DNA from: Flavobacteriaceae bacterium GF1 | GTDB taxonomy: Bacteria; Bacteroidota; Bacteroidia; Flavobacteriales; Flavobacteriaceae | Length of the DNA stretch: 64,000 nucleotides | NCBI GenBank assembly: GCA_009797885.1 | Contig: WNKP01000004.1 | Location: 1 to 64,000 of the forward strand | Direction: 5' to 3' | In this document: piece after piece, positions 1,964-48,605 of the stretch | Layout of the letters: every line of letters begins with the position of its first letter | Position numbering within the stretch: position 1 is the stretch's first letter | Translations under genes and position numbers: made by a program | The notes under the pieces: model-generated | Told to the model about the DNA's origin: nothing | What the model saw: the letters and a program-made list of their open reading frames with translations, nothing else | Database searches by the model: none

Positions 1964-2005
1964 GTTTAATTTAGAGTTTAGAGTTTGGAATTTAGAATGA
2001 CGAGT
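1964..2005. repeat. Heptamer array, stop-codon side of S23 gene 1
   Basis: Six tandem 7-bp units fill the gap between the hisF start and the S23 stop codon. On the plus strand the units include GTTTAAT, TTAGAGT (twice), TTGGAAT and TTAGAAT, and the last unit reaches the first base of the stop codon triplet at 2005. Read towards the S23 gene, the units end in GAAT or GAGT. The array on the other side of the gene has the same unit form on the opposite strand. Confidence 0.85.
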
Positions 2006-2367
2006 CATGGTTTTGACTGGTTCAACCTTTTTCTAACTGTTTTTATTGAACTGACGGCTATGGCCAAAAGCTCATTCCCCTCTTCCCACAATTTTTGAAT
2101 AGTATCTTGTTTTCTTACCTCTGTTCTCTTCAACATTTCTAGCCAAAACATGCTTTCATCTACCTCTTCCTCAACTATTTTGAGCTTATTGATGAAATCT
2201 TTATCTGATTTTGCCCTACAAGCTGCTCTGTAATTGGCCCCTACGGAGCTTGAACTTCTAATAAGCTGCCTTACCCAAGCATCATATTCCCTGGACTTTG
2301 GGAACTCTTTGCAAAGCTTCCAACATTCAAAAGCAAAATCTTTAGTGCGCTTTTTCAAATCGTTCAT
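2005..2367 (-). CDS. Four-helix-bundle protein, S23/IVP family (copy 1)
   Basis: A 120-residue, all-helical, charged protein. It matches the 23S rRNA intervening-sequence protein family (four-helix bundle, PF05635-like), which is structurally related to the Avd subunit of diversity-generating retroelements. Family-typical segments are QLIRSSSSVGANYRAA near 34-49, the [15 protein letters not shown] helix near 54-68, and NELLAIAVSSI near 98-108. My hand alignment to the second copy at 3751-4113 gives 73 identical positions of 120. The gene lies between the DinB-like gene and hisF and is flanked on both sides by tandem 7-bp repeats. The molecular function of the family is not established, and the gene is not inside rRNA here. 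Confidence 0.9.
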   Translation of the reverse strand: MNDLKKRTKDFAFECWKLCKEFPKSREYDAWVRQLIRSSSSVGANYRAACRAKSDKDFINKLKIVEEEVDESMFWLEMLKRTEVRKQDTIQKLWEEGNELLAIAVSSIKTVRKRLNQSKP

Positions 2368-2376
2368 GGCTCCTTT

Positions 2377-2432
2377 ATTCCAATTCTAAAATTCATCATT
2401 ATCTATTCGCAATTCGTCATTCGTCATTCAGC
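2377..2432. repeat. Heptamer array, start-codon side of S23 gene 1
   Basis: Eight consecutive 7-bp units run upstream of the S23 start and overlap the last 16 bases of the DinB-like gene. Plus-strand units include ATTCATC, ATTCGCA and two exact ATTCGTC. On the coding strand this reads as GACGAAT-type units. The final codons of the DinB gene (Leu-Asn-Asp-Glu-stop) are made of repeat sequence, so the array has written itself into the neighbouring gene's 3' end. Confidence 0.85.
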
Positions 2433-2935
2433 ATCGTAAGATCATGTCCATCATAAAACCCTAATTGCGCATTGTGCAATTGTTTGACCCAAAAGGCAAT
2501 CTGCCCCGTATGGTATGAAAAATGTTCGACCACATGGATACAGTTGCCAATGCCGGAGAACTGAAATCCCTGTACTTGTTTTTGTTTTAGAAAACGTTCA
2601 ATAGTGGTGCTATTGAAGGTATCTTTTACGGTATTCACCGTTTCTTCAAGCAGGGCGAGCAACTGCTGCTTGGTATACCCGCCAGAAGTGGTAAATTCCT
2701 TATCCCTTTCCCGCCGATCTTCACTTTCCTCCAAAGAGGCAATTCCGTATTGGGTCATATTGCCACAGAGGTGCAAAACTAAATTGCCAATACTGTTCAA
2801 GGACGAATTGGGTTTCTGCCAGACCTGTGCTTCGGAAACCCGTTGCAAGGCAATTTGGATCATTCGCAAACTCTCATCCATTCGAAAGCAACAATTCTGA
2901 ACAAACTCGACTTTAAAACGTTTAATATCATCCAT
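2417..2935 (-). CDS. DinB-like (DUF1572/YfiT-type) putative metal-dependent protein
   Basis: A 172-residue helical protein of the DinB superfamily, which forms metal-binding four-helix bundles of mostly unknown substrate. Candidate ligands are His56 in NLVLHLCGN, plus the [12 protein letters not shown] stretch near 134-145 with its HxxxHxG-like arrangement. The start codon overlaps the hisA stop by 8 bases, indicating translational coupling to hisA. The C-terminal codons run into a heptamer repeat array. A link to histidine synthesis is not known. A second DinB-like gene lies at 34011-34526. Confidence 0.8.
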
Positions 2936-3707
2936 ACTGTACTCTATAATTTTCCAATTCCTTTAGGGATATCCTGTTCTCGTATATCGCCTTTCCGATG
3001 ATTACCCCTTCACAACCTATTCGCTTAAGTTTTGGCAATTCCTCCAATGTTGAAATACCCCCACTTGCAATCAATTTGATGCCATTTTCCTCAATGTCCA
3101 CAACACCACTACCTCCAATTTCAGTTCTGATGACCTTGGTTTTATTCAACAACTCTTTATAGACATCAAACGAAGGCCCCTCCAACATTCCGTCCTTCGA
3201 AATATCGGTACAAATCACATACCGCACCCCCTCTTTTTGAAACTTTTTCACAAATGGAACCAGTTGTTGCTTGGACTCCTCTTGCCAACCGGAAACGGCG
3301 ATGTTCCCGTCTTTGGCATCGGCCCCAAGAATAATCTTAGTACTACCATAGGTTTTGAGCCAACCCAAAAAAGTAGCTTCATCCTTTACTGCAATGCTCC
3401 CTCCCGTTATTTGGTGGGCGCCACTTTCAAAGGCAATATGCAAATCCTCATCCGCTTTTAACCCACCCCCAAAGTCAATCTTTAAATCGGTCTTGGTAGC
3501 GATCTGTTCCAGAACCTTATGATTGACGATATGCCTGGATTTTGCCCCATCCAGGTCAACCAAATGCAGGTATTGGATGCCGTGGTCCTGAAATTGTTTT
3601 GCGACCTCCAAAGGATTTTCGTTGTACACCTTCTTCGTGTCATAGTCCCCTTTGGACAGGCGTACACATTTGCCATCAATAATATCAATCGCCGGAATGA
3701 TTCTCAT
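2928..3707 (-). CDS. hisA: ProFAR isomerase
   Basis: HisA is the (beta/alpha)8 barrel isomerase converting ProFAR to PRFAR. Asp8 in IPAIDIIDG is the first catalytic Asp, and a second Asp lies in [10 protein letters not shown]. The longest open frame starts at 3770, but family proteins begin at the MRIIPAIDI motif, whose ATG is at 3707. The extra 21 codons run through the heptamer array and into the neighbouring S23 gene. I therefore use 3707, giving 259 residues, which is normal. Confidence 0.96.
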
Positions 3708-3742
3708 CTTAAACTGGAAATTAGAAATACGAAAATTAAAAT
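3708..3742. repeat. Heptamer array, stop-codon side of S23 gene 2
   Basis: Five 7-bp units fill the 43-base gap between the hisA start codon and the second S23 stop codon. Plus-strand units include TGGAAAT, TAGAAAT and TTAAAAT. Units of the form NNNAAAT point towards the S23 gene. TGGAAAT and TAGAAAT also occur, on the other strand, in the array on the far side of the gene. Confidence 0.75.
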
Positions 3743-3750
3743 GTTTGTTC

Positions 3751-4113
3751 TCAATTCCATTTTTTATCAAGTCTTTTTCGAGTCGTATTTATGGATGATA
3801 CGGTAATAGCCAATAATTCATTGGCTTCATCATAAAGTTTTTTGAATTCGTTTTGATTTTCTTCCGTTATCTCCATGAATATTTCCAACCAATACAAACT
3901 TTCATCGCACTCTTCTTCAACAATCTTCAGCTTATTGATGAAATCCTTATCAGATTTTCCCCTTTGAGAAGCTCTAAAATTTGCCCCAACAGCGCTGGAA
4001 CTTCGAATTAACTGATTGACAAAAGCATTGTATTTTCTTGACTTTGGAATTTTAGTACATAGTTTCCAACAATCAATTGCAAATTGTTTTGTTCTTTGTT
4101 CAACATTTTTCAT
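3751..4113 (-). CDS. Four-helix-bundle protein, S23/IVP family (copy 2)
   Basis: A 120-residue paralogue of the protein at 2005-2367, about 61 percent identical by hand alignment. The same conserved blocks are present: [31 protein letters not shown] and [11 protein letters not shown]. It is inserted between the GNAT gene and hisA. The 5' and 3' flanks are A/T-rich heptamer arrays with units different from those of copy 1. Two separate copies in one operon, each with its own repeat borders, suggest independent insertion or duplication of a cassette. Confidence 0.9.
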
Positions 4114-4121
4114 ATAACGAA

Positions 4122-4170
4122 ATCCCTAATCTCCTATTTCTAATTTTGTATTTCATATTTCCAATTTATG
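4122..4170. repeat. Heptamer array, start-codon side of S23 gene 2
   Basis: Seven 7-bp units separate the S23 start from the GNAT gene and overlap its stop codon and the codon before it. Plus-strand units include ATTTCTA, ATTTCAT and ATTTCCA. On the coding strand they read TAGAAAT, ATGAAAT and TGGAAAT. The orientation is inverted with respect to the array at 3708-3742. Confidence 0.85.
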
Positions 4171-5166: not shown

Positions 5167-5173
5167 TAAAATA

Positions 5174-5201
5174 GGTTAATGGTTAATGGTTAATGGTTAA
5201 A
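5174..5201. repeat. Heptamer array without S23 gene, hisH-hisB gap
   Basis: Four tandem units of GGTTAAT (the last is GGTTAAA) start 8 bases from the hisH start codon. The remaining gap to the hisB stop at 5300 is about 98 bases in which I recognise no gene. This is the most regular heptamer array in the window and has no S23 gene attached. Confidence 0.9.
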
Positions 5202-5299
5202 AGTATCAGGTACAACATAGAAGGTATGGATTTCTCAAAACAGTTCATCAAACATTATTTTTTATTCATCCTTGCCCTTTTAATTGAGGCCACAACAAT

Positions 5300-48529: not shown

Positions 48530-48534
48530 TTCTC

Positions 48535-48563
48535 AATTTGAAATTATAAATTTTAAGTTTTAA
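48535..48563. repeat. Heptamer array without S23 gene, serC-serA gap
   Basis: About four degenerate 7-bp units, such as AATTATA, AATTTTA and AGTTTTA, fill the gap between the serC stop and serA. They are less regular than the his operon arrays but keep the 7-base spacing and the NNNAAAT form. The upstream ATG of the longer serA frame (48564) lies at the array end. Confidence 0.55.
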
Positions 48564-48605
48564 ATGTCCAATATAGTTGAGGATAAGAGTTCTAAAGTTT
48601 TAAAA

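Follow-up and report, generated by a model that had tools for sequence, protein, structure and literature searches.

Two S23 genes and their flanking arrays

The window analysed here is a stretch of 64,000 nucleotides from Flavobacteriaceae bacterium GF1 (contig WNKP01000004.1, assembly GCA_009797885.1), in whose his operon two genes of the S23 family (four-helix-bundle proteins for which we know of no established function) are each enclosed by tandem 7-nt repeats. The genome it belongs to, referred to as G000, comprises 5.28 Mb in 62 contigs; its congeners are referred to as G001–G010 and single loci by L-numbers. Copy 1 (2005–2367, reverse strand; PF05635 64.7 bits) is located at the junction of a DinB-like gene and hisF, and copy 2 (3751–4113, reverse strand; 66.1 bits) at the junction of a GNAT gene and hisA. 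Both encode 120 residues, exceed the PF05635 cut-off of 33.8 bits, match TIGR02436 with scores of 88.9 and 85.5 (cut-off 24) and are 61% identical to each other. DinB, GNAT and HisA were checked in Pfam, and the remaining his gene names are a reading of the open reading frames (ORFs). Both copies lie between protein genes, outside any 23S rRNA gene helix, and S23 is the sole ORF between the arms of each, with no transposase or recombinase there (trans-acting enzymes were not searched), and a transposase carried as cargo is rejected for the window copies. In sequence, copy 1 matches the structure 2rld (E 1.8e-15; one entry, five chains). The same protein also has a weak sequence match to a chain named Cmr5 (9arw, E 0.0017).

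The arrays were assessed by a local period-7 self-match score, compared for each flank with 2000 dinucleotide shuffles; all four arms are given on the reverse strand. The upstream arm of copy 1 (2368–2429) is an imperfect period-7 array (GAATGAC, GAATGAC, GAATTGC and so on), best at 2398–2429, with a score of 15 that none of the 2000 shuffles reached; its first units overlap the final codons of the DinB-like gene, and its copy number differs between congeners. The downstream arm (1962–2007; TTTAGAG and similar units read towards the gene, best at 1970–1998) scores 16, again with 0/2000 shuffles as high, and covers the interval from the stop codon of S23 to the start of hisF. For copy 2, the upstream arm (4114–4168; GAAATAT, GAAATAC and so on, best at 4121–4167) scores 14 (P = 0.0005) and extends to the GNAT stop codon, and the downstream arm (3708–3753, inverted, best at 3711–3734) scores 9 (P = 0.001) and extends to the hisA start codon. 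At seven further periods in the range 4–11, these flanks score 1–6. Tandem Repeats Finder reports period 7 at 1968–1998 and 2412–2429, and does not report the more degenerate arms of copy 2.

A preliminary description of this DNA had reported two S23 genes inside the his operon, bordered by period-7 arrays that touch the stop and start codons of the neighbouring genes, and the domain scores and the shuffle tests at all four flanks bear this out at both copies. It had also described the arms as inverted. This holds for copy 2, whose arms give a local match of 22 when compared inverted and 8 when compared directly (0/500 shuffles as high); for copy 1, where a common unit form (GAATNNN / GAATTTA) is visible, the values are 10 and 6 (P = 0.156) and inversion alone is not significant.

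S23 genes and arrays within and beyond the genus

A PF05635 search of 11 genomes of the genus, including G000, gave 72 matches in ten of them (0–17 per genome; 71 over the cut-off and one below it at 26.7 bits, several with stops), G002 being the genome without a match. In the 80-nt flanks of these 72 genes the mean period-7 self-match is 12.7 upstream and 9.6 downstream, compared with 3.0–4.4 for the other periods of 3–15 except 14. The best period is 7 or 14 in 60/72 upstream and 51/72 downstream flanks, and another period in the remaining 12 and 21. The arms of one locus match each other better inverted (13.2) than directly (8.1) or than they match arms of other loci (8.4), with inverted exceeding direct in 61 loci, falling below it in nine and equalling it in two. 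By eye, the unit varies between loci and is nearly alike in both arms of a locus, for example GTTCAAT in L002 and an AAGTACT-like unit in L016. The closest named S23 to one of those in congener G003 is from a Maribacter (L168, 72%; among the best 80 of 587 relatives).

Two long arrays (L061:10412–10606 and L062:18551–19127) contain many period-7 units that differ yet keep a GT core, which is not simple slippage. At one contig end, G002 has an array of eleven GGTTGAT units (L068:1–78).

Beyond the genus, 157 of 198 genomes sampled from the phylum Bacteroidota have S23 genes, often several each. From this draw 70 loci (30 + 40) were taken from 49 genomes. They were joined with 80 loci found by scanning named genomes, the best 80 of 587 relatives, giving 150 broad loci. 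Period 7 was assigned to 43/70 phylum-draw and 55/80 scan loci, and period 8 to 17/70 and 17/80. Among the same best 80 of 587, 35 scan loci are from outside Bacteroidota by record title (Clostridia, Planctomycetota, Acidobacteriota, Nitrospirae, Desulfobacteraceae, Gammaproteobacteria, candidate phyla and others), and 32 of these carry a label, 24 of period 7 and eight of period 8. The arms of one Acidobacteriota S23 gene (L190) are seemingly of period 9 (TTTCGGAGG), a possible third register. The heptamer is general in that period 7 recurs across phyla, and not general in that some S23 clades use 8-nt and one gene seemingly 9-nt units.

After one of 174 loci was left out for its cut flank, 173 were compared: the arms are more alike inverted than directly in 135, and the predicted RNA duplex between the arms of one locus is −25.9 kcal/mol, compared with −15.7 kcal/mol for arms of other loci. 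On cyanobacterial plasmids, 7/8 S23 loci score at least 12 at period 7 on both sides; these eight were drawn from 34 matching records and include two pairs of near copies. On a Pseudanabaena plasmid, an S23 gene with long GCTAAAA arrays lies between cas6 and cas4 (L315:1501–1860).

The repeat period follows the S23 protein

Trees were built from 203 of 222 S23 proteins over 120 columns, leaving out rows with stops, of odd length or representing identical copies, and are weakly resolved. The period label changes 9 times on the FastTree tree, compared with 28.9 times when shuffled, and 10 times on the IQ-TREE tree, compared with 29.0. Period-7 and period-8 loci occur together in nine genomes, mostly with S23 proteins of different clades (a second count of genomes holding both periods also gave nine, not all of them the same), and when labels were shuffled within both-period genomes only, as few changes arose in 1/300 shuffles (mean 16.4, 10 observed). 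A repeat process acting across the whole host genome would not produce such a pattern. One period-8 clade (19/21 rows, support 93) contains loci from Flavobacterium and other Bacteroidota together with loci from Nitrospirae, KSB1 and Desulfobacteraceae. The S23 protein and the repeat are linked, with the period depending on the protein clade.

Aligned in phase and read towards the gene, the units take the form TNAGWWN at period 7 and AGTNNCNA at period 8, derived from arms of score at least 9 in labelled loci (109/116 period-7 and 34/34 period-8 loci, of 174). At period 7, 82% of 171 arms have an AG in their consensus unit, compared with a null of 53% (maximum 60%); at period 8 it is 92% of 49 arms, compared with 66% (maximum 80%). 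The null was obtained by permuting positions inside units, and the maxima are those of 40 permutations. The median number of units per arm is 4.6 in both period classes (10–90% range 3.2–8.8); arms of fewer than two to three units would go undetected.

Arrays beside S23 genes and elsewhere

In 719 kb of sequence, intergenic regions scoring at least 12 make up 26 of the 75 that adjoin S23 and 25 of the 607 others. Period-7 arrays of score at least 14, in counts where orthologous stretches are counted repeatedly, number 28 in 40.2 kb within 300 bp of S23 (697 per Mb), 29 in 530 kb at 0.3–10 kb (55 per Mb) and two in 150 kb farther than 10 kb (13 per Mb); at 0.3–10 kb, periods 6 and 9 give nine arrays each and period 8 none. 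Windows not selected for S23 (900 kb from ten genomes) contain five intergenic arrays and seven altogether. For the 150 broad loci, a score of 12 at period 7 or 8 is reached on either flank by 92/150 S23 genes and 28/140 control genes, and on both flanks by 41/150 and 5/140; ten of 150 control genes proved to be S23 and were dropped. A period-7 or -8 label is assigned to 132/150 S23 loci and 45/150 control genes, this control set still including the ten S23 genes.

Arrays are thus enriched beside S23 genes other than the window copies, and the genus flanks peak at period 7, as the preliminary description had anticipated. The association is not exclusive: arrays standing alone are real and common in S23-rich genomes. 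Within the window, two period-7 arrays of score at least 14 have no intact S23 gene next to them, and both flank S23 remnants.

Junctions with and without S23

The GNAT–hisA junction illustrates how one site varies among the 11 genomes. The two genes touch or nearly touch in five (G005, G007, G008, G009 and G010), are separated by S23 in four (G000, G001, G004 and G006, the G006 copy having stops), by a five-unit solo array without S23 in G003, and by 28 nt with a palindrome-like AAGTACTT in G002. Three different S23 proteins occupy this junction: that of G001 is 18% and 25% identical in amino acids to those of G000 and G004, and those of G000 and G004 are 61.5% identical, with saturated synonymous divergence (dS), compared with a dS of 0.20–0.21 for hisA, GNAT and copy 1. 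At two sites, the S23 proteins that different genomes have at the same junction are unrelated (18–31% amino acid identity).

Comparison of the trio G000, G004 and G006 covered ten sites filled in one genome and 13 S23-less alleles, classed by reading; of 11 sites, G004:C1:910716 was left out, its downstream piece having no listed match in G000. Three alleles are plain short junctions (L289, L290 and L292), three are S23 deletion remnants (L297, L298 and window 48529), four contain REP-like (repetitive extragenic palindrome-like) palindromes, GTCATTCCTGTGAAAACAGGAATCC and kin (L288, L291, L296 and L299), one is, by eye, a GIY-YIG pseudogene (L293, G000), and two have inverted period-7 arms around ~130 nt of non-S23 DNA (L294 and L295), which may be a non-autonomous form or an S23 element in advanced decay. 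An Rfam search of L006, L007, L062, L294 and L295 gave no match, and an Rfam-known RNA in these elements was rejected. Compared with the filled G000 allele, L292 places the element between a stop and a start codon that lie 3 nt apart in L292. In remoter congeners, L305 alone of eight alleles (L300–L307) keeps an S23 end with its downstream array.

Two such junctions lie within the window. At hisB–hisH (5167–5299, reverse strand), a putative S23 gene end is followed by a downstream array (TTAACCA, 5174–5200; by reading), where congener G004 has a longer S23 gene (PF05635 57.8 bits). At 48530–48605 on the forward strand, a remnant consists of an upstream array (48535–48573) and the first S23 codons from 48564, followed by a deletion; congeners G004 and G006 have an S23 gene at this junction (filled allele G006:C40:101457).

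Similar variation is found on Nostoc plasmids. In eight of 28 records matching one plasmid junction, S23 with GGGAACA arms is present in two and the junction is empty (50–52 nt) in four; one record has similar arms without S23 and is 96.5% identical to a filled record over the 72% covered, and another (L319, p057_H) has a different insert of ~289 nt with an apparent duplicated GTC at its ends, internal ATTCAAA arrays and no annotated S23. A block consisting solely of S23 and its arms (L310:1423–1891) has a 72% match on a Geminocystis plasmid. This unit is ~0.45–0.5 kb long in the window and on the Nostoc plasmids. A search for near-identical S23 genes at different places gave pairs from related genomes, which may be moved or inherited copies.

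S23-less alleles with intact neighbours therefore occur in near relatives at the his junctions, the ten congener sites and the Nostoc plasmids, as expected of a mobile element. The idea of an element that comes and goes between operon genes, leaving the neighbours unbroken, agrees with the presence, absence and replacement seen at all three, and comparison of the his operon among relatives, which had been proposed as a check, gave S23-less, replaced and solo-array alleles at GNAT–hisA. The direction of these losses and gains is inferred from the alleles, none having been seen to happen.

The DinB–hisF junction of G007 contains an intact GIY-YIG gene (L079:2827–3105, 61 bits), where relatives have S23.

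Orientation and selection

S23 is sense to both neighbours in 66/71 genus loci and antisense to both in none, compared with 52% of 611 control genes; counted once per site, the values are 21/24 and 0/24. In the broad set, 114/133 are sense and 6/133 opposite to both neighbours. Resident S23 genes without stops have a median ratio of nonsynonymous to synonymous divergence (dN/dS) of 0.10 (12 sites, 36 of 93 pairs usable). Comparison of copy 1 with the genes that G006 and G004 have at this site gives 0.02–0.03, and its amino acid identity to them is 98–99%, compared with 95–96% for HisA. Such constraint points to some role of the residents, which may serve their own upkeep or the host.

A proposed element and its alternatives

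S23 ORFs are known from the intervening sequences (IVSs) of fragmented ribosomal RNA genes in Coxiella, Leptospira and Brucella. In the available text of Warrier et al. 2016, two or three heptameric repeats (GACAGAT), variable in number between strains, precede the S23 ORF of the Coxiella IVS, which has complementary ends, is excised by RNase III and is called selfish, with earlier guesses of mobility cited (PMC4990558). Heptamers just upstream of an S23 ORF had thus already been reported, and the view that the pairing was undescribed has to be given up. The units described here resemble these IVSs in that an S23 ORF lies in a small element with complementary ends (22 inverted at copy 2 and 135/173 loci overall, copy 1 standing at P = 0.156); they differ, taking IVSs as published, in being located between protein genes, in having arrays at both ends and in having a period of 7 or 8 according to the S23 clade.

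The reading preferred here, to which a probability of roughly 60% is assigned, is that S23 and its inverted arrays form one heritable unit and a minimal mobile element, a relative of the 23S rRNA IVS. Such an element would consist of an S23 ORF between two arrays of ~3–9 imperfect 7-nt (in some clades 8-nt) units, the downstream array being in kind the reverse complement of the upstream one; it would settle between a stop codon and the next start codon, mostly sense and inside operons, and would later be lost, replaced or reduced to solo arrays. Mobility of this kind would leave the genes on either side intact. The S23 protein may read the repeats on a single strand of RNA or DNA, with each unit contacted by one subunit, and may carry the element about together with host enzymes; two relatives were crystallised with five chains, and TRAP is a precedent for a ring that reads spaced AG triplets. 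Paired arms in the mRNA could form a stem of the RNase III type like that of the 23S rRNA IVSs, which would then be the same element in another site. RNA is a likelier partner of S23 than DNA, since the transcript is indicated by the arms, by the bias towards sense orientation and by the rRNA relatives that RNase III cuts. That an S23 protein acts on the repeats, as had been suggested, gains from the tracking of period with protein clade, which turns the repeat register into a concrete guess at what S23 proteins bind; these comparisons show that S23 and its arrays are inherited as a unit, that the period is tied to the protein and that junctions turn over, whereas physical action and the way of moving go beyond them, and we infer movement, binding and RNase III processing.

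Several observations weigh against this reading. The period rule has exceptions on the tree (L167, of period 8, stands beside L160, of period 7, and the genus row M55 also departs from it), 15/72 genus loci lack a period label, and neither period was assigned to 10/70 phylum-draw loci and 8/80 scan loci, again the best 80 of 587 (18/150 together). The arms are more alike directly than inverted in 28/173 loci. Unit letters correlate weakly with protein similarity (r = 0.18 across 162 loci, mostly from pairs above 50% identity), and unit similarity is also higher within a host group (0.185 compared with 0.138). Control genes of S23-rich genomes often have an array next to them although S23 is absent, as given above, and the density of solo arrays in ten congeners has no significant correlation with the number of S23 genes (rho = 0.37, P = 0.29). 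Movement itself was not observed; by eye, the ten sites and the Nostoc plasmids, where arrays blur the ends, show no constant target-site duplication; and no S23 match was found in phage records. Purifying selection is also stronger than a purely selfish resident needs.

In the likeliest alternative, itself improbable, the arms would form an mRNA stem that is acted on by S23 and RNase III to tune the downstream gene, so that the whole would be a resident regulatory or RNA-processing module with mobility incidental and rare. A dN/dS of ~0.1 at fixed sites, with copy 1 more conserved than HisA, would fit such a module, as would the sense orientation inside operons, the strong arm–arm duplexes and the RNase III excision reported in the available text on the Coxiella IVS (PMC4990558). 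It accounts less well for the patchy presence of S23 (0–17 copies in 11 genomes), for unrelated S23 proteins replacing one another at one junction, for deletion remnants and for neighbour genes that differ from site to site.

A lesser probability still attaches to the view that the arrays are general short tandem repeats, arising by slippage like the short tandemly repeated repetitive (STRR) sequences of cyanobacteria, in which S23 genes land or are tolerated. The solo arrays in 25/607 non-S23 intergenic regions and beside 28/140 control genes are what this view predicts, as is the five-unit array without S23 at GNAT–hisA in G003. However, landing within one array would give direct, not inverted, arms, and the period of 7 or 8 tracks the S23 clade within single genomes; sites filled elsewhere are tight or short array-free junctions in L289, L290, L292, L317, L318, L320 and L321; both high-scoring solo arrays of the window flank S23 remnants; and array density falls from 697 per Mb within 300 bp of S23 to 55 at 0.3–10 kb and 13 farther away. 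As the sole cause, slippage is rejected on these grounds.

Least probable is movement through RNA copied to DNA by a reverse transcriptase acting in trans, with S23 in the role of Avd, its four-helix-bundle relative: the two are held homologous in the available text of PMC10053308 and the strong sense bias is as an RNA route would give, but the reverse transcriptase family PF00078 has no match in 7/11 genus genomes, including G000, six of which carry S23. With PF00078 matches in 4/11 genus genomes and none in G000, a diversity-generating retroelement context is rejected here.

Other repeat systems and apparently shared insertion sites

Tandem heptamers between genes are also known as the STRR sequences of heterocystous cyanobacteria. 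These resemble the S23 arms in being tandem and intergenic; we know of no link of STRR sequences to S23; on cyanobacterial plasmids, 7/8 S23 loci have period-7 scores of at least 12 on both sides, as given above. Another comparison is with the RAYT/REP system, where a chromosomal gene for a Y1 tyrosine transposase is flanked by inverted palindromic repeats with many dispersed copies. The likeness lies in the gene with inverted flanks; S23 is a four-helix-bundle protein and not a known nuclease, and its arms are tandem arrays, not palindromes.

TAACTGA arrays were described by MacGregor 2015 in Beggiatoaceae, cyanobacteria and five Bacteroidetes as intergenic repeats located mostly just before start codons and thought to spread horizontally by a mechanism not known (PMC4679880, available text). 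The unit read on the opposite strand, TCAGTTA, fits the TNAGWWN form of the S23 arms, and the available text of that paper has no occurrence of S23, four-helix or intervening sequence. Apart from the Coxiella paper, no text joining S23 genes with repeat arrays was found in the portion of the literature that could be searched, most subscription papers and all bioRxiv preprints being outside it. The present data suggest a tiny type of mobile element that is widespread and has scarcely been described, and scattered reports (heptamers in one rRNA IVS, unexplained intergenic heptamer arrays) become one testable system.

In its widest form the proposal is tentative, and is given somewhat less than even odds: a pan-bacterial minimal mobile element, with no transposase or reverse transcriptase of its own, in which a ring-forming four-helix-bundle protein would read strand-asymmetric AG-core repeats in a clade-fixed register of 7 or 8, perhaps 9, nt at about one subunit per unit. 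It would settle sense-wise at stop/start junctions and decay to solo arrays, thereby being a source of unexplained intergenic heptamer arrays in Bacteroidota, cyanobacteria and perhaps Beggiatoaceae, and the 23S rRNA IVS would be the same element elsewhere.

Insertions in the rRNA genes of candidate-phyla bacteria encode either homing nucleases, GIY-YIG among them, or S23, according to the available text of PMC11270868. The same pair alternates at the junctions described here, where S23 and GIY-YIG seem to share landing places.

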